Source: a virus. Taken from it: 28,649 nt of DNA. The notes under the pieces were generated by a model. That model searched no databases. It saw only the letters and a list, made by a program, of their open reading frames with translations, and was not told the DNA's origin. The DNA lies in the IMG/VR virus record IMGVR_UViG_3300010297_000060, positions 1 to 28,649 of that record; one strand, written 5' to 3'. The position numbers were made by a program, and so were the translations under genes. Shown piece by piece: positions 6,821 to 19,499 of this stretch (positions are counted from its first letter, which is position 1; each line of letters opens with the position of its first letter).

Positions 6821-8383
6821 TTAACTTGGGAAATCCCAATCAAGAAGTCGGCTTCGTTGTGGCTTTCCGTCCTCTGATGGGCCTCGTTGAGAGGATGAGG
6901 GCGAATCGGTCCCCTTATGCCGAGGCTTATCTTCTTCCTTTGGATTTGCAGGGGTTTGGACTTCCTCCTTAGGGGTTACCTTTTCTTTTCCGTATCGCGT
7001 GAGGATTCGCTGGACTCTTTTTTGGTGGTCAGCCAATTCTTTTTCTGTTCGGTTGAGCGCCTCCGCTGAGAGAAAGTTCAGGATTTCCTCGGTGGAGAAT
7101 GTCCAATGCTTCTCCCTTTGCTCTGGAGTCATCCCGGCAATCTCATGCGCCGTAGCAAACTCTTTCCCGTTGCGGATGCGCTGGTCCTTCATCGCGGGCT
7201 TGTTCATGGCCTGCTCTTGGGCGAGAATCCGGTTAGCAATCTGCTCGTGCATCGGGTTTCTTTCAAAGTCTGGGACGGTCAGGCCTAACCGCAACCGAAG
7301 AAGCTCGTCTGCCATTGCCTTACTACCGCGATGATTGCGGGCAATAATAGCAGCCTCCTCCGGGAACTCATCTGCCATTGCCTCGCCTGCCTTAATTGGG
7401 TCACCATGCTCCTCAACCTGCTTGTTGAATAGCTTCATGGGCTCCTCGGCTCCAGGCACCTTACCGATTTCATCTACAAGGTTCTTTGCATAGACCACCG
7501 ACTTGTCTTGGAACTGAGGGAGAGCAACCCGCTCAATCTCTTGTTGTTCCTTCCAACTGCGAAGCTCCTCAATCTCCTTGTTCTGCTCGCCTTGAATCCG
7601 CTTCTGAGCCTCGTTAATTACGATTTCCCGCTCAAGTCGCTTAATTTCCTGCCGGGTCGCCGTGGGCTTGTTCTTCTTGACCCATGCAATGTACCTCGGA
7701 TTTTCCTCGATGGGGGTTTCCGGGCTTTGCTTCTGAAGCGAGGCTACCGTCCGGTTGTGGTTCTTGATGTAGTCGAGCTGCCGTTTGGTGTAGCCCTTGT
7801 ACTTTTCGTCCACAGATTCGGCATCCCGCCAAAACTCTACGGAGTCTTTAGCTTCTGCGGGGAGGGTGTCGACAAATGCCCAGTCCTCATCGGTCAATCC
7901 AGATAGGTCGTCCTTGGGTTTATCCTCCGGTTTATCCTCGGGCTTATCTTCCGGCTTATCCTGTTTGTCCTGAGGTTTATAGAGGGAGGCCTCATCGTCT
8001 TCTGGAACCTCGAAGGGGTCCTTGAACTTGACCTTCTTCTTCGGCTTCTCGTCCTCCGGCTTGTCTTCCGGCTTGTCTTCCGGCTTGTCTTCCGGCTTGT
8101 CCTCCGGCTTGTCCTCCGGCTTGTCCTCCGGCTTGTCCTCCGGCTTGTCCTCCGGTTTGTCTTCCGGTTTGTCTTCCGGTTTGTCCTCGGTGATGGAGCC
8201 GAATGAGCGATTATTTTTCCAATCCTCCTCTGCCTCCTTATCCTCCTTGTCCAGAAGTTCCTCCTCAGTGGGAGTGGATTCCAGGTCGAGCTTCTTCTCT
8301 GGCTCTCCAGCCATGAGGAATGAAAACTTTACTGGGTCTTGGGTCGGTGTTTCTTGGGTCGGTGTTTCTGTTTCTTGGGACAT
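6821..8383 (-). CDS. Scaffold-like protein with tandem KPED repeats (520 aa)
   Basis: A highly charged protein between the portal and the capsid gene, the usual place for a scaffolding protein. The N-terminal part is acidic and contains 11 perfect KPED repeats (about residues 67-111), a basic cluster (KPKKKVKF), and a shorter second block of PEDK repeats near residues 140-155. The middle (about 225-290) is helical and coiled-coil-like (EIKRLEREIVINEAQKRI). The C-terminal tail is basic and polar and ends SRLLDWDFPS, compatible with the short C-terminal coat-binding region of scaffolds. No protease motif is visible. The scaffold role is inferred from composition and synteny. Confidence 0.65.
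   Translation of the reverse strand: MSQETETPTQETPTQDPVKFSFLMAGEPEKKLDLESTPTEEELLDKEDKEAEEDWKNNRSFGSITEDKPEDKPEDKPEDKPEDKPEDKPEDKPEDKPEDKPEDKPEDKPEDEKPKKKVKFKDPFEVPEDDEASLYKPQDKQDKPEDKPEDKPEDKPKDDLSGLTDEDWAFVDTLPAEAKDSVEFWRDAESVDEKYKGYTKRQLDYIKNHNRTVASLQKQSPETPIEENPRYIAWVKKNKPTATRQEIKRLEREIVINEAQKRIQGEQNKEIEELRSWKEQQEIERVALPQFQDKSVVYAKNLVDEIGKVPGAEEPMKLFNKQVEEHGDPIKAGEAMADEFPEEAAIIARNHRGSKAMADELLRLRLGLTVPDFERNPMHEQIANRILAQEQAMNKPAMKDQRIRNGKEFATAHEIAGMTPEQREKHWTFSTEEILNFLSAEALNRTEKELADHQKRVQRILTRYGKEKVTPKEEVQTPANPKEEDKPRHKGTDSPSSSQRGPSEDGKPQRSRLLDWDFPS
8051..8182. repeat. Eleven 12-bp tandem repeats inside the scaffold-like gene
   Basis: On the plus strand the unit is GTCYTCCGGYTT, repeated 11 times in perfect 12-bp register with only synonymous changes (C/T at the fourth and tenth bases), followed by a degenerate twelfth unit. 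On the coding strand each unit encodes Lys-Pro-Glu-Asp. Such arrays expand and contract by slippage. A shorter diverged block lies near 7918-7962. Confidence 0.95.
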
Positions 8384-11419: not shown

Positions 11420-13147
11420 CTACCCGCTAACCATCGCAAGTTTATTCTTTTTATCCTGCCTGCCAGCGAAGTGTTGTCGGAAATCCATGAAGTAGATTGG
11501 GTAAGATACCGCGTCAAAAGTGTGGATAAATCCGTCGATTGACTTGAGTGGCTTATCCTCGTCCTCTTCCTTGGTGATGCGATCCTTGGCCTTCTTCAGC
11601 CCCTCGAACATTTCAACAACTGGGTCACACCCAGCCCCGGAAACAAAGAGGGTTTCATCTTGGAGCTTGTTCTTCACGGCAATCACCCGCTCCCTAACGG
11701 AATCCGGACCCTTGGGCGGGGCCTGCATCCGAATGGGGGAAAGCATACGGTACTTCGGATTATTCTGTATCATCTCCTTGGACTTCAGGTAATACTCCTT
11801 GTACTCAAACGATCCGTGGGGATTGAATTGGTTCAAGGCCTGACGATCGGAGATGTGGTAGAAGGTAAAGGGGTGGTCGTACCGCTCGCACCACCAAGCC
11901 ATTTTATCCATGAGCAACTTCACCAAAAGATTGATGCTGATTTTTTTATCCGTGAATATGGAGCAGTCAAAGATTCGGTATATTGGTCGGCCATTGCTCC
12001 AGTTCCTCTGCATGAATACTCTGGCATTATTAACCGAGCCAGGGTCATATCCAACGATGATTGGCTCACCCACAACGGGCTCAAGCCCGAACCGTGGAGT
12101 CCCTTTAACATGGATAGTCTTTTCAAAGTAACCATAGAACAGGCTGTTCCCCGTAATCTTCGGAACCCATTTCCCGTGGATGGCCCGCTCCACTTCCGTT
12201 GGGTCACTCCGAGCGGTTTCGTAGATGGACTTTATGTACTCGTCCTTGTCGGGGAAGAACTGATTCTCCGTCATCGGGAGGTGAAATACACCGTAATCCG
12301 GGTGGTACTTCTTGATGTCCTTCTTGAAGTCGAACTCGTGACTATCAACCTTGTCGGAAGCACCCGGATGAAGGTCGTGCGGGAGGACAAAAAATTGCTT
12401 AAACACCCAGTGTTTTTGCCCTATGGTCGCCGGATTGCAAGTTGCCATCCATTGTTGCGCCCTCACCGGAACGGATGTCCGGCGGCCGATCTGCTGAAAC
12501 ACAGCGGTGAAATACGCATCATCGCTTGTATTAGTCAGCTCCTCCATGTGGAAGAGACTGGGCTTGAAGTCCTTGATCCGATTGACGAGCTGTGATGGAT
12601 TAAGCATCGACTTGAACACTATCCGGCTGATGCCACCGTGCTGGTTCTTAATATCAACCCACAGGTTTTTAGCATCATCCCTATATGTAACCCCATGCTG
12701 CTCAGTCAGACCAGATGTGAAATTGCCCCACTCCAGCCCGAACTCCTCTTCCCACATCTTCAAAACACCGAGGGGCTTTCCATCCAATGGCCCCCCGCTG
12801 ATGCGGGCCTCTGTTGTTAAATTCTCCCAAGCCCCACCGATAACACCACCTGAACGAGTGATTGTCACAATCATGTAGAGGGCATCATCGAATTGAACAC
12901 AATGCCGCACCCCCTTGTGTTCAGCCGTCATGGTCTTGGCGCTACCCCGCTCGCCGTGCATCAGCACAATTTTAGCGTCCGAGTAATATGCCCGACGAGC
13001 TGACGGTCCAGGTAGTGGAGGCTCCCACTCTTCGAGTTCCTCCTCGGTTTCTGGCGGCTCCTCAGACTGAGGTCCCGCGAGGGCAATCATTAAGGCTTCA
13101 TCAATTTCTGCTTGGGGAAAGGGCATTTCATTTTGGGAGATAATCAA
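11420..13147 (-). CDS. terL: Terminase large subunit (575 aa)
   Basis: The ATPase-nuclease motor that packages phage DNA into the prohead. The N-terminal ATPase domain shows a Walker A at about residues 65-72 (GERGSAKT), a Walker B with catalytic acidic residues at about 194-205 (FKPSLFHMEEL) and a coupling motif near 233-241 (WMATCNPAT). The C-terminal RNase H-like nuclease shows acidic residues at D368 (IIVGYDPGS), D434 (HISDRQ) and D545 (GFIHTFDAVSY). The extreme N-terminus is acidic and proline-rich. The start is uncertain: TTG 13147 lies 3 bp after the LamG gene stop, whereas ATG 13126, seven codons in, is the next choice. Full length for the family. Confidence 0.95.
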   Translation of the reverse strand: MIISQNEMPFPQAEIDEALMIALAGPQSEEPPETEEELEEWEPPLPGPSARRAYYSDAKIVLMHGERGSAKTMTAEHKGVRHCVQFDDALYMIVTITRSGGVIGGAWENLTTEARISGGPLDGKPLGVLKMWEEEFGLEWGNFTSGLTEQHGVTYRDDAKNLWVDIKNQHGGISRIVFKSMLNPSQLVNRIKDFKPSLFHMEELTNTSDDAYFTAVFQQIGRRTSVPVRAQQWMATCNPATIGQKHWVFKQFFVLPHDLHPGASDKVDSHEFDFKKDIKKYHPDYGVFHLPMTENQFFPDKDEYIKSIYETARSDPTEVERAIHGKWVPKITGNSLFYGYFEKTIHVKGTPRFGLEPVVGEPIIVGYDPGSVNNARVFMQRNWSNGRPIYRIFDCSIFTDKKISINLLVKLLMDKMAWWCERYDHPFTFYHISDRQALNQFNPHGSFEYKEYYLKSKEMIQNNPKYRMLSPIRMQAPPKGPDSVRERVIAVKNKLQDETLFVSGAGCDPVVEMFEGLKKAKDRITKEEDEDKPLKSIDGFIHTFDAVSYPIYFMDFRQHFAGRQDKKNKLAMVSG

Positions 13148-14308: not shown

Positions 14309-14893
14309 TTAAATCGTTAGATCATTCGCCTCAAGTTCCTCAAGGGTTACGGCGGCATCAATCTCTGCTTCCTTCGCCTTGGCAGCGGCATAAGCGGCAA
14401 GCTTGTGGTCGGCAACCGCATCAACCATTCCACCAATCTCAGTGGCAGTCAGTGCAACCCATGCTTCACCACCACCTTCAAGCCCCACCTTTCGGTCAAC
14501 CTTCAGGTTCGCCCGACGACCCATTGCAGTCTGCATCCCTGTCAGCTCAGCAACGGTCTTGTCGTCAGTATTCACCTTAACCCCATTGAGATAGATAGGT
14601 TCATTAAGTTTGGCTTGTAGGTTGGCTAGTACCTGAGCTTTAGCCCTCGCCTTAAAGGAATCCGGGTCCTCGTCAAAGCGGGTTGCTCTTTTTTTTGCCG
14701 CCATGGCTGGCAAAGCTTGGGTTCGGTCCATCGCAACTCCATCAATCAAGAATGCGTTTCCTTCGATTGATTCAATTTGTGCCGCCACTTCGTCCGTGAT
14801 TTGGACAGCAGTGTAGTTGTTTGGGATAAGTGAAGGCTCGCCTTCGGTAATACGGAGAACCCTGCCTCGTGGTGCTAATACTGCATATTTCAT
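14309..14893 (-). CDS. DUF4376-type phage tail protein (194 aa)
   Basis: Residues 1-60 resemble the short N-terminal part of phage tail-fibre assembly-like proteins (KYAVLAPRGRVLRI). Residues about 80-190 match the DUF4376 pattern: a strand with NGVKVNTDDKTVAELTG, then the EAWVALTATEIGGMVDAV segment, and a final helix with H/A/K repeats ending IDAAVTLEELEANDL. DUF4376 occurs beside phage fibre genes and is thought to be virion- or assembly-associated. The ATG overlaps the stop of the sulfotransferase gene by 4 bp. Confidence 0.7.
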   Translation of the reverse strand: MKYAVLAPRGRVLRITEGEPSLIPNNYTAVQITDEVAAQIESIEGNAFLIDGVAMDRTQALPAMAAKKRATRFDEDPDSFKARAKAQVLANLQAKLNEPIYLNGVKVNTDDKTVAELTGMQTAMGRRANLKVDRKVGLEGGGEAWVALTATEIGGMVDAVADHKLAAYAAAKAKEAEIDAAVTLEELEANDLTI

Positions 14894-15687
14894 AACTCGT
14901 TAATCCAGTTGAATTTTTGTTGAAGTACTTGAGAAGTTTGCCGACCAAGGATGTCGTGCCAGTCTGGTTTAAGTGGCTTGACCTCAGGACGTATTTCATG
15001 GTCTCCGTAAGGGAATCCAACATCATGCTCCTGAGTGTATTGCTCCACGTTCTGGGTATTGTGGATAAACGGTTCCTCCCCGAGATATTCCCAGACCCCG
15101 TTCATCGTCCCTTGAGGGTCTTCAGTTAAGTCTTCGGCATGAACAAAGTGTAACTTGTCCTTGAACCGTGAAGCCGCTTCGTGAACTCGTTCGATAGCAA
15201 TTCCCACCGGGGGGTGCGATAACCATCCCTGAACCCTTTTATCGAGCGTTGTCCACTGAGCAGCGTTCTTAACTTCCGTAGCTGTCAGGACGGATGGGTG
15301 CGCCCGGAACTTTTTTTCCATAGAGCAAACAATCCCTCGTACATCCCGAACCGGAACGAGCACCTTAGCATCAGGCCACACCTTGAAGAGTTGGTCTATA
15401 TAACCAACCCATGCCCTGGATTTGTCAACTACCACGGGACGGTCGGTGATGGAGTTGAAAGCGTTCTCACACCCGGCTCGGATGTAATCGCAATACATAG
15501 TCTCCAACTCGGCCTTATTTGCAGACCCAGCCACATCTGAATTGAAGGCTCGACGAGCCTGAAACCCAAATTCATGGAGGGTTGATGTGGGGGTAGCATG
15601 GACACGGGGGTTCTGGGCCAGCAGATTTTGCAGCAAAGTAGAGCAAGACCGGGGTAGCCCGCTGGTGAAATGTAGAATTTTACCCAT
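14890..15687 (-). CDS. Sulfotransferase (265 aa)
   Basis: A PAPS-dependent sulfotransferase that would transfer sulfate from 3'-phosphoadenosine-5'-phosphosulfate to a hydroxyl, probably on a carbohydrate or tyrosine. The 5'-phosphosulfate-binding loop is at residues 8-20 (TSGLPRSCSTLLQ, with Cys where Gly is common in the loop). The 3'-phosphate-binding motif is at about 110-123 (LVPVRDVRGIVCSM, R114 and S122). A further conserved pattern is HAEDLTEDPQGTMNGVWEYL. Length is normal for the single-domain family. The gene abuts the LRR fibre gene (TAA directly followed by ATG). Encoding a sulfotransferase within the fibre cluster suggests modification of a virion or host surface glycan; this is inference. 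Confidence 0.85.
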   Translation of the reverse strand: MGKILHFTSGLPRSCSTLLQNLLAQNPRVHATPTSTLHEFGFQARRAFNSDVAGSANKAELETMYCDYIRAGCENAFNSITDRPVVVDKSRAWVGYIDQLFKVWPDAKVLVPVRDVRGIVCSMEKKFRAHPSVLTATEVKNAAQWTTLDKRVQGWLSHPPVGIAIERVHEAASRFKDKLHFVHAEDLTEDPQGTMNGVWEYLGEEPFIHNTQNVEQYTQEHDVGFPYGDHEIRPEVKPLKPDWHDILGRQTSQVLQQKFNWINEL

Positions 15688-16725
15688 TTATGTGAGGTCC
15701 TTAATGACTGTGATTCCGGTTTTTCCGGCAATGGTTTGTCCCGCCCCTGCTGTCCATGATGCATCTGAGGCCAAGGCGTGGACGGTGGCGATACTTGAGG
15801 AACCAAACGAAGTTGCACCCAGAGAAGTCTGTGGGCATCGCACATCAATAGAGGTCAGGCCAGTACAACCGGTAAAGGCCCAACTGCCGACACTGGTCAC
15901 CGTGCTCGGAATCACAAGCGAGGTCAGGCCAGAAGAGTCGAAGGCACCATAGTCTATGGTGGTTAGACCTTCAGGCAGATCAAGCGTTGTCAGGGCAGCG
16001 CAGTAATAAAAGGCATTGGCCCCGATCTCGGTCACTGTGCTCGGAATCTCAAGCGAGGGCAGGGCACCGCAACCGCTGAAGCAATAATCCCCCAAAGTGG
16101 TTATACTGTTAGGCAGATTAACCGAGGTCAGGGACCAGCATTGTTGAAAGTTGAAGTCGCCGACGGTGTTCGGTAAAGTGACCGAAGTCAGGTCACCTGC
16201 GTGATTGAGGTGCGCTTGCACCAACCCCTCGTGCATTTTTATATCAGTGATCCCACTGTAATAAAAGGCTCCAGTAGCGATGGTGGTCACCCCTGCCGGA
16301 ATCTCAATAGAGGTCAGGTTAGCGCAATTAAGGAAGCAATAACCCCCCAAAGTGGTTAGAGATGATGGGAGAACAACCGATTCCAAGGCAGTCGGAAAAC
16401 CACCACCTGAAAGCCCAGTAACCCCCTCCCCAAGTGCAACTCCTTTTGTTCCAACGGGAAATGTGGTATTGGGATTAATACTGCCAGAATACGGGTACGC
16501 TTTGACGACATTGGATGCGTCAGTGACATAGGTGAGTCGGTCCCGTCCTTCTGGCGAGGGCATCTTGAGAAAATCCTCCGACCGGACCGCATTAATCGGT
16601 CCATCTTCAAGAGCGATCCGAACGCTATCCCCTATAATCTGGAAGAGTTCGCCTTCTTTAATCGGAGTTGAGGACGCTTGTAATTCGGCTTGTGTGCCCC
16701 TGCGGATTCTAATTGGTGTGCTCAT
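15688..16725 (-). CDS. BspA-type leucine-rich-repeat fibre with Mtd-like N-terminus (345 aa)
   Basis: Residues 1-50 (IRIRRGTQAEL, then IKEGELFQI) match the N-terminal virion-attachment domain pattern seen in phage major tropism determinant and related fibres. Residues about 115-320 are consecutive BspA/LRR_5 repeats of about 22-24 aa with the pattern L-x-x-[IV]-x-[IL]-P-x-[ST]-[VL]-T-x-[IL]-G, for example LTSVNLPNSITTLGDYCFSG and LTSLVIPSTVTSVGSWAFTG. The C-terminal end is a short cap. BspA-type repeats mediate adhesion to surfaces and proteins. The combination indicates a virion-anchored adhesin or receptor-binding protein. DNA-level repeats in the gene could recombine and change repeat number. 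Confidence 0.8.
   Translation of the reverse strand: MSTPIRIRRGTQAELQASSTPIKEGELFQIIGDSVRIALEDGPINAVRSEDFLKMPSPEGRDRLTYVTDASNVVKAYPYSGSINPNTTFPVGTKGVALGEGVTGLSGGGFPTALESVVLPSSLTTLGGYCFLNCANLTSIEIPAGVTTIATGAFYYSGITDIKMHEGLVQAHLNHAGDLTSVTLPNTVGDFNFQQCWSLTSVNLPNSITTLGDYCFSGCGALPSLEIPSTVTEIGANAFYYCAALTTLDLPEGLTTIDYGAFDSSGLTSLVIPSTVTSVGSWAFTGCTGLTSIDVRCPQTSLGATSFGSSSIATVHALASDASWTAGAGQTIAGKTGITVIKDLT
15895..16370. repeat. Degenerate direct repeats coding the LRR array
   Basis: Long near-identical blocks recur within the LRR gene. One starts GTGCTCGGAATC at 15901 and again at 16037, each followed by the near-identical CAAGCGAGG. Another, CCCCCAAAGTGGTTA, occurs at about 16089 and 16345. The DNA repeats follow the 22-24 residue protein repeat and would allow in-frame recombination. 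Confidence 0.75.
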
Positions 16726-16744: not shown

Positions 16745-18163
16745 TTAGTAAGTGTTGAATGACGATAAATCGACGGGGGTCAAAGTAGAGGAAGGCTTTC
16801 CGTTTGCGGTAGATAGTGAGTCCATCACGGATTGAACTTGAGCTTGGTTGTTGGTCACATCACTACCGCTTCCCCCAAAACCACCATTCCATACAGTGAT
16901 TAAGACGAGTTCCCCATTGATGATGATGAAGGACGGGCTGCCGGAGTCGTATAATTCGATTCCCGGGGAATCCCAGACCCGGTTATCTGCGGGTTGATCG
17001 ACAAATTCATATCGTTTGGCATCGGTAGGATAAGTCCAGGTGCCGAGTTTATTTTGACCATTCAAATCATGCACCATCCCATGCTCCTGCTGGTCCAGCA
17101 ACAAGCCCGGTATTTTGTTAGCGTATGGGCTAACCCACGGGAGGTACGATTGATAGTTAGTGGGAAGAACTTTGGCAGGGACAACCCCCGCGGGGAGGGC
17201 TGAATCAAACAACCCAACCATCAAGTCCGACCCAATTCCGGTATCGTAATAGACCCGCTCTTTTGCAATGGTCGTCCTGTAAATCAGGGTCCCGTCCATC
17301 TGGAGGAAATACACCTTGCTGTTAATGGGCGGGTGGAAAGAAGAATGGTGGCATGACATCCAGTGCCAAGGACTGATAGCTGTGGCGGCCGGAGAACGCC
17401 TATGGGTTGATTCCCCGCTGCGAATGTGGGACGGGCTAATACAAGACAGGTCAATGTCTGCCGCCCAGAAGTTCGGGTTTCGGATGAACTCATCAACCCC
17501 ACCTCTGGTTTCTGAGGCATCCGTATAATTTGAGTTCGACGGGAATGATGTGTATAAATGTCGGGCAACGTCCCGGTCTGTGCCAGCAATACGGGAGTCC
17601 ACTGCCAGTTCGGCATCTCTCATCATACTTCCGGCCTCAAACTCTTTGAAAACATCCACCGTCGACGATACCGATTCCGTCATTGCGATTGCAATATCCG
17701 GGGTGCGGTCAACCCCTACTGACTCAATTTCCGGCAAGAAGCGGGCGTAAATCTTTGCTGTCCCTACGGAAACATGGGTCACAAGCCCCTCCGAATCCAC
17801 CGTTGCAATAGCAGGAGTATCGGAAACCCATTCGATTTCCGACGATTCCGGCAGACTCACCAGACCCCAATCAATCGACAGTTGAAAGTCCTCGACGGAT
17901 GTCGCAGAAGTTTCGCGATCCCAAACCCGGCCATTATATGTGACCTCTGCTGTCGAACCAGGGACTGTTACCCTTGGAATCGGGTCCGATTTGACAATCA
18001 CTGGAATCACGGGGTCCTTCGTAATTCCCCCTCCATTAATTTCTGAGATCAGGGTTGTAGACGGTTCGCTCAGCGATACGCTCTCTCCAAACTGGACGGC
18101 CTTTCTCGGCTCAACCGGGACAGCAATCCTTTTCCCATTCGACTGGGAAAACATTAACTCCAT
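16745..18163 (-). CDS. Virion-associated protein with Ig-like (BIG2) and trypsin-fold domains (472 aa)
   Basis: Residues 1-50 repeat the plan of the 57-aa neighbour (FSQSNGKRIAVPVE, then SEINGGGI). Residues about 65-150 form a bacterial Ig-like BIG2 domain (SEIEWVSDTPAIATVDSEGL, then VSVGTAKIYARF). Residues about 235-430 resemble a PA-clan trypsin-like protease. Possible catalytic residues are His in ISPWHWMSCHH (H272 or H273), Asp in GSDLMVGLFDSALP (D313) and Ser in YDSGSPSF (S407, the GDSGGP position), followed by INGELVLITVW. All three triad motifs are in the right order and spacing. The protease may act on host surface protein or cleave virion components; this is inference. The start forms TAATG with the preceding stop. 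Confidence 0.7.
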   Translation of the reverse strand: MELMFSQSNGKRIAVPVEPRKAVQFGESVSLSEPSTTLISEINGGGITKDPVIPVIVKSDPIPRVTVPGSTAEVTYNGRVWDRETSATSVEDFQLSIDWGLVSLPESSEIEWVSDTPAIATVDSEGLVTHVSVGTAKIYARFLPEIESVGVDRTPDIAIAMTESVSSTVDVFKEFEAGSMMRDAELAVDSRIAGTDRDVARHLYTSFPSNSNYTDASETRGGVDEFIRNPNFWAADIDLSCISPSHIRSGESTHRRSPAATAISPWHWMSCHHSSFHPPINSKVYFLQMDGTLIYRTTIAKERVYYDTGIGSDLMVGLFDSALPAGVVPAKVLPTNYQSYLPWVSPYANKIPGLLLDQQEHGMVHDLNGQNKLGTWTYPTDAKRYEFVDQPADNRVWDSPGIELYDSGSPSFIIINGELVLITVWNGGFGGSGSDVTNNQAQVQSVMDSLSTANGKPSSTLTPVDLSSFNTY

Positions 18164-18377: not shown

Positions 18378-19445
18378 TCATAGTTTCCAAAGCATTGACG
18401 CTTCACTGGGGTCAATCTGCCCCTTGTAATGCCTAATGAACGTCCGAGAGTTTTGGTGTCCCATGTTCTCCATCGCCCACTCCATGCCTTTGTGGTAGGC
18501 GCAGGTTCCGAATGTGTGCCTTGATACATCATGGCTCCACTCGTACCCCAGTTGATTGCAGACCTTCGTGATGTTGGTTCGGAAATTACGGTAGGTCATT
18601 GGGCAGACTTTCCCATGCCCTCCCTTGTATAGCTTCCACAAATCCCCGAGGCCGTACAGCGTCCTTGGGGTTCGGGTCTTACTGATGGCTGCCGGAATAT
18701 TAATGATTTTCCGCTTTGGGTCCAGGTCTTCGTGGCGCAACCCCATAAACTCTCCCTTGGGCCGAATCCCGGTCAGGAAAAGGAGGGCGACAGGGAACTT
18801 GATTTTATCCGGGCTGACCTCGATAAACTTCCAAACCATCTCCGGGGTCCAGAATTTGATGTGGTCACGGTCAGTCTTGGGCAATCGCCACTTGATTTGC
18901 TTGGTGTCAATGGTCGTCCAGCCCTGTTCTCTGGCCCAGTTGAAAAATGTCACTAGCCTGGAGCGGGATGTCTCTCGGCTGGTTTCCCCTCCGTGAGCAG
19001 TCAAGCAATACTTGACAACTAAATCGGCAGTAAAAGAGACAACAGGCCAGTCTTCCCGGCTCATCATAAACTGGTCGAGTATATAGGTCGCGTTTTTGCG
19101 GTAGGACTCTCGAACATTTCGCCTCTCCATGTCCCGACAATATGCGTCTCTGGCGTACTGGAGCGTCACTGAGCGGGGGACTATGGCAACCTGTAAGAAT
19201 TCCTTAATAGTTGCATCCATGTCCACCCCTGCCTGCTTGCACCGAAGACGAGCCAACTGGATAAGTAGCTTTTCCTCGTGGGTTACATCAACCACCGGAG
19301 TGAAAGGCTGGAACTCCTGTGCCCAGTCCACAGCCTCCCACTCGGCAGCAAAATACTTCGACTTATCCTTGCCGTCCTCGATATACCGGACTCGCCAAGG
19401 TAATTTTCTCCCCTCTTGCTTCGATATTTTCCTTATTGATACCAT
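18378..19445 (-). CDS. int: Tyrosine recombinase (phage integrase, 355 aa)
   Basis: The site-specific recombinase for integration at attP. The catalytic domain shows the first Arg in TGIRPKGEF (R228), a beta-hairpin Lys in SKTRTPRTL (about K256), the HxxR box HDVSRHTFGT (H305, R309), then GHQNSRTFIRHY with H330 and the nucleophile Y340. The N-terminus (SIRKISKQEGRKLPWRVRYI) resembles an arm-binding domain and a SAM-like core-binding region follows. An in-frame ATG lies 16 codons further up, but that extension is hydrophobic and unlikely. The gene is next to the 49-bp tRNA-Gly segment at 19598-19646, as expected for an integrase/attP pair. Confidence 0.92.
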   Translation of the reverse strand: MVSIRKISKQEGRKLPWRVRYIEDGKDKSKYFAAEWEAVDWAQEFQPFTPVVDVTHEEKLLIQLARLRCKQAGVDMDATIKEFLQVAIVPRSVTLQYARDAYCRDMERRNVRESYRKNATYILDQFMMSREDWPVVSFTADLVVKYCLTAHGGETSRETSRSRLVTFFNWAREQGWTTIDTKQIKWRLPKTDRDHIKFWTPEMVWKFIEVSPDKIKFPVALLFLTGIRPKGEFMGLRHEDLDPKRKIINIPAAISKTRTPRTLYGLGDLWKLYKGGHGKVCPMTYRNFRTNITKVCNQLGYEWSHDVSRHTFGTCAYHKGMEWAMENMGHQNSRTFIRHYKGQIDPSEASMLWKL

Positions 19446-19499
19446 TGTCTCAGCCCAAGCCAGTACCAAAATAGCCCAAATTCCGGCATACAAATGTTG

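Follow-up and report, generated by a model that had tools for sequence, protein, structure and literature searches.

The predicted protease gene and its locus

The window, by which we mean the whole stretch of DNA analysed, is an IMG/VR virus record of 28,649 bases. An open reading frame claimed at 16745-18163 by an earlier note, which was made from the sequence alone, is real and lies on the minus strand. The features of the locus that bear on its product, hereinafter P0001, are the following:

16745..18163, minus strand: 472-aa Ig-like plus chymotrypsin-fold protein P0001, ATG start
17738..17998, minus strand: N-terminal Ig-like (Big_2-type) domain, approximately residues 56-142, drawn from the strands of the model, extent approximate
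16748..17644, minus strand: predicted chymotrypsin-fold protease domain, residues 174-472 (predicted structure, and family profile with E 3e-91, the P0001 row being itself part of that profile)
17345..17347, minus strand: codon of H273, predicted catalytic His (chymotrypsin H57), placed by alignment register, invariant 76/76
17225..17227, minus strand: codon of D313, predicted catalytic Asp (D102), invariant 76/76
16943..16945, minus strand: codon of S407, predicted nucleophile (S195) in YDSGSP, invariant 76/76
18378..19493, minus strand: tyrosine-type integrase, directly upstream of the protease gene (Pfam, PHROGs)
15688..16725, minus strand: LRR protein of the BspA type, probably a receptor-binding fibre; its N-terminus weakly resembles Mtd_N (Pfam, E 0.053, short of the cut-off)
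14890..15687, minus strand: sulfotransferase (PF13469, E 1.9e-17)
14309..14893, minus strand: DUF4376 protein (PF14301, E 8.3e-8; weak match to phrog_10508, tail fiber protein, E 0.0036)
11420..13147, minus strand: terminase large subunit (phrog_2, E 2.5e-15), which marks the phage setting

The gene order after the integrase is protease, LRR protein, sulfotransferase and DUF4376 protein, and the earlier placement of the gene in a fibre cluster holds good in view of these succeeding genes. Given that a tyrosine-type integrase lies directly upstream, the phage of the window is probably temperate. Elsewhere in the window, the product at 6821-8383 (minus strand) contains a long DKPEDKPE repeat, and its position among head-type genes is typical of a scaffold protein.

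The BIG2 Ig-like domain that had been read from the sequence is borne out by two Pfam models, PF02368 (E 1.1e-5) and PF22359 (E 1.8e-6), each of which passes its curated cut-off over approximately residues 108-140, the former with a score of 25.7 against a gathering cut-off of 22.8 bits. This domain is the only Pfam match in P0001, and in PHROGs the protein matches, for the most part, structural and tail proteins that bear Ig domains, including a 'structural protein with Ig domain'. The Ig-like fold is common to P0001 and BIG2-containing virion proteins such as phage decoration and major tail proteins; those listed in BFVD, among them a BIG2 protein of phage JWAlpha and decoration or major tail proteins of other phages, match P0001 over the Ig-like stretch only and not over the protease.

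Predicted fold and active site

With P0001 alone no protease profile was matched in Pfam and no PDB entry by phmmer. A single-sequence AlphaFold2 model was unusable (pLDDT 32); the model built from a 50-row alignment reached a mean pLDDT of 83.2 and a pTM of 0.76. In structural searches, which bear on the protease part of the protein, every one of the 50 best Foldseek matches from the PDB was an S1 peptidase (lowest E 1.5e-6), and VIA-align 2 superimposed alpha-chymotrypsin on the model range 190-450 with Z 16.4 and rmsd 3.1 over 186 residues. A predicted fold without a double β-barrel had been named beforehand as one outcome that would refute the trypsin-fold protease reading of this region; on that point the prediction is a chymotrypsin-like double β-barrel with high confidence (AlphaFold2, Z 16.4), which supports the reading. 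Among the best structural matches is the bacterial S1-type Esp serine protease of staphylococci (PDB 4jcn, 6q24; Z 15.4-15.9), which differs from P0001 in being secreted and bacterial, shows 11-12% identity to it, and is without an Ig-like domain in the matched chain. In a viral structure library the best match (E 8.6e-20) comes from an uncultured Caudovirales phage and is itself uncharacterised.

Profile comparisons point in the same direction. The matches shown for a profile of twelve members searched against the PDB were trypsin-fold proteases, the best being tissue-type plasminogen activator (E 0.0023), with whose H57/D102/S195 the three boxes are in register. Weak matches to picornavirus VP1, obtained with a two-row profile, do not recur among the hits of the twelve-row profile, and we take them as noise. 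Against the Pfam Trypsin model (PF00089) single members came close (E 0.0044) but stayed below the gathering cut-off, the best one shown, L017, scoring 17.3 bits compared to 20.6; P0001 had no PF00089 match of any kind. The protease domain has no corresponding family in PHROGs or NCBIfam, and a Pfam search of P0001 with E up to 1 gave no match to the Peptidase S74-type auto-proteolytic fibre chaperone.

In P0001 the boxes that had been quoted for His, Asp and Ser were located at residues 266-273, 311-320 and 405-412. They exceed chance, because they align with the AAH, GTD and GDSGSP boxes of homologs and because all 76 distinct family domains retain the H, D and S. The predicted triad is H273/D313/S407: the serine stands as the earlier note had it, and the catalytic His is the last His of 'SCHH' in the box concerned. 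The 76 distinct domains have a mean pairwise identity of 43% (minimum 18%), with identical sequences alone removed, and as the locus sets hold near-duplicates such counts do not equal counts of independent events. Among them, strict invariance is confined to five of 304 columns, namely H273, D313, S407, G408 and P410, and the invariance of the Ser, Gly and Pro is partly selected because the retrieval pattern includes DSG[SN]P. The largest retrieval scan used as patterns either an 'AKVLPxN' stretch or [GY]DSG[SN]P, and the catalytic His and Asp are in neither of these. All three catalytic residues are also kept in 18/18 strong genome members found by profile search.

A departure from the canonical active site is seen at the position equivalent to Gly193, where 68 of the 76 domains have Gly and the other 8 have Tyr. 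Glycine at this position is a usual, not absolute, criterion for chymotrypsin-like proteases, and in P0001 Tyr405 stands in for this oxyanion-hole residue, as a Tyr does in 7 other rows. This subgroup retains the full H/D/S triad, and the tyrosine may lower or alter activity. The position corresponding to 189 of trypsin, six before the Ser, is mostly Asn or Ser with no Asp189 consensus; hence, trypsin-like Arg/Lys specificity would not be expected for the family. We also looked for a trypsinogen-like activation site, but no basic site is conserved ahead of the barrel, where I, V or L occupies column 203 and columns 201-202 vary.

Taken as predictions from the model and the alignment, the chymotrypsin fold and the triad are well supported. 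The phage family has in common with peptidase family S1 of the PA clan the double-barrel fold, the H-D-S order and the [G/Y]DSG[S/N]P elbow, but it differs in being phage-encoded, in its N-terminal fibre-type or Ig-like domains, in the lack of an Asp189 consensus and of a conserved activation site, and in falling below the Pfam cut-off.

A family of predicted proteases in uncultivated phages

Single-query searches with P0001 or P0002 found no relatives in viral contigs, and reaching them required alignments of two and three sequences in which the emphasis was shifted. The retrieval path led from P0001 and a phage homolog as a pair to L003 and L004, from these to L007 and L008, and then to 15 viral and 3 genome loci. 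IMG/VR pattern scans eventually confirmed at least 175 viral loci of the family, of which 80 were kept for analysis. A first scan of genome contigs gave no relatives and no plasmid was found to carry the family; the genome loci from the pattern scan come from MAGs titled Phycisphaerae, Bacteroidales and Kiritimatiellae. Profile matches among sampled genomes amount to 47/387 in the phylum of the Kiritimatiellae MAG, 6/392 in that of the Phycisphaerae MAG and 13/395 in that of the Bacteroidales MAG, and many of the weak genome matches may be ordinary trypsin-like proteases.

Among 50,697 named phage records, tblastn found the family in one, where it is annotated as a 'hypothetical protein'. This member, UOF78081.1 from the uncultivated podovirus Caudoviricetes sp. 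ct3Et533 (MW202510.1, Manatee Spring), is 25% identical to P0001 over residues 166-472 (65% of P0001) and has canonical boxes (HILSVAH, GSDQTIG and GDSGSP). Its gene lies in the podovirus structural region, with a next gene annotated fN3; in contrast to P0001 it has no Pfam match whatever, and so no Big_2 domain was detected in it. The earlier view that the architecture is not a common one is therefore right as far as named phages are concerned (1/50,697), but not for uncultivated phages, in which it is recurrent. This recurrence makes the protease a family rather than a singleton. We found no description of such a phage protease family in the open-access literature, and what emerges is a large, previously undescribed protease family of uncultivated phages.

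Domain architectures and gene neighborhoods

In 37 of 83 distinct proteins the protease domain is at the extreme C-terminus, preceded by an N-terminal part of 100-200 aa. P0001, with 173 residues ahead of the domain, is near this layout, and other members show long N-terminal fusions (639-1359 aa in all) or C-terminal extensions. Big-type Ig domains with a Pfam match are seen in P0001, L074, L047 and L138, and one below the cut-off in L009. A simple hydropathy scan, with N-termini read by eye, detected signal-peptide-like N-termini in 4/78 proteins (L010, L011, L063 and L049), of which L010 and L011 are bacterial-genome-derived and predicted to be secreted surface proteins; by the same scan P0001 has no such N-terminus. 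One protein (L022:4815-6716) contains two protease domains in tandem, and in both L033 and L050 a single gene separates two distinct protease genes. The bacterial relatives in L107, L112, L115 and L118-L120 form the C-terminal parts of long proteins, with the next gene encoding a protein of approximately 200 aa with a signal-peptide-like start; these gene pairs are possibly a cellular version of the system.

Turning to the neighborhoods, the Mtd_N (major tropism determinant N-terminal) domain was matched by 15/100 neighboring proteins, and the proteins with this pattern are mostly encoded directly before the protease. PHROGs matches of neighbors with a named function are mostly to structural, tail and tail fibre proteins. 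In the prophage L137 the gene for an Mtd_N/LRR protein is followed, in order, by those for a 299-aa DUF4376 protein whose N-terminal part looks sulfotransferase-like by eye, the protease, a 111-aa protein and the tape measure protein, and in L138 the protease is flanked by probable fibre genes on one side and lysis-like genes on the other (by eye). In L037 and L053 the protease comes directly after sulfotransferase and DUF4376 genes of the window type, a related sulfotransferase comes after it in L056 and L069, and sulfotransferase or LRR genes adjoin it in several further loci. Other peptidase-like products also occur nearby. In L008 a subtilisin-like protein (L008:6323-8875, with GTHVAGT and NGTSMASP) directly follows the protease, giving this phage two unrelated serine proteases side by side; Pfam recovered a single Peptidase_S8 match among the neighboring proteins. 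Downstream of the protease in L003, the product of L003:8291-9214 has a QTLGDCTSHS motif with the look of a papain-fold cysteine peptidase and no Pfam match, and several other loci have a gene of comparable length (307-317 aa) downstream of the protease.

The sulfotransferase has a wider setting of its own. The family of the window gene (14890-15687, minus strand) was confirmed in 362 IMG/VR loci, and among the best 80 of these (L140-L219) an LRR protein is directly upstream in 69/75 and a DUF4376-like gene directly downstream in 45/78. It thus belongs to a recurrent LRR-sulfotransferase-DUF4376 cassette, in which it may modify the LRR fibre, e.g. by tyrosine sulfation, or the host surface. 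An obligate pairing of protease and sulfotransferase was considered and discarded: the protease occurs within 6 kb in 0/80 sulfotransferase loci and is therefore not an obligate part of the cassette.

Potential function of the protease

We propose that P0001 would be a catalytically competent PA-clan (S1-like) serine protease, which a temperate tailed phage carries in its tail-fibre or receptor-binding module. Its Ig-like domain, at the N-terminus, may anchor it to the virion or fibre, or else to the surface of the host, and its chymotrypsin-fold domain, at the C-terminus, would cut proteinaceous host-surface material during adsorption, making P0001 a proteolytic counterpart of the tailspike depolymerases. 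It is the gene setting that suggests a virion location. On balance we regard a virion- or fibre-associated protease that cuts a host surface protein during adsorption, and so assists that step, as somewhat more probable than its negation. Consistent with an enzyme domain working outside the cell, the signal-peptide-like proteins L010 and L011 are surface proteins derived from genomes.

The frequent C-terminal position of the domain, including that in the fusions of 639-1359 aa, and its common adjacency to Mtd_N-type genes would suit a role in maturation, in which the domain cleaves itself or a neighboring fibre protein such as the Mtd_N/LRR protein during assembly, like C-terminal auto-proteolytic fibre domains. 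However, the domain is conserved while its neighbors vary, and we consider this role unlikely because a basic activation site ahead of the barrel is not conserved and because the domain also occurs in the secreted-looking bacterial proteins L010 and L011, where phage maturation is irrelevant. The evidence hence favours an extracellular target over self-maturation. The secreted-looking relatives encoded in bacterial genomes speak for another reading, a lysogenic-conversion (moron) protease that the prophage would express to its host's advantage and that would have nothing to do with the virion. We retain this reading, at a rather slim probability, because the integrase directly adjoins the protease gene, a classic position for cargo; against it, P0001 has no signal-peptide-like N-terminus, the L137 gene is inside the tail module ahead of the tape measure, and relatives lie beside structural genes in large phage contigs.

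Catalytically dead S1 homologs are known from other systems, and the Tyr at the Gly193 position in the P0001 subgroup raises the possibility that the trypsin-like fold serves solely as a binding domain of the fibre. We disfavour this, and hold it to be very improbable, because the triad is invariant, in 76/76 domains with the Tyr193 subgroup included and in 18/18 strong genome members too; Tyr193 is the remaining doubt.

Biological significance

Phage depolymerases described so far are mostly directed at polysaccharides. We tentatively suggest, as a possibility that falls short of being probable, that the large, undescribed family of S1-type proteases of the phage adsorption module might represent a proteolytic depolymerase in phages of environmental bacteria, i.e. 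a chymotrypsin-fold enzyme of the tail or fibre, accompanied by Mtd_N/LRR receptor-binding proteins, that would cut a protein layer or protein receptor on the host cell. The family is nearly absent from named phages and lies below the thresholds of standard family libraries, and well over a hundred contigs of uncultivated phages have the protease as a neighbor of receptor-binding genes. It offers a testable enzyme, for which S407A is the obvious control. Such a family would point to protein layers as a common barrier in the hosts of these phages.
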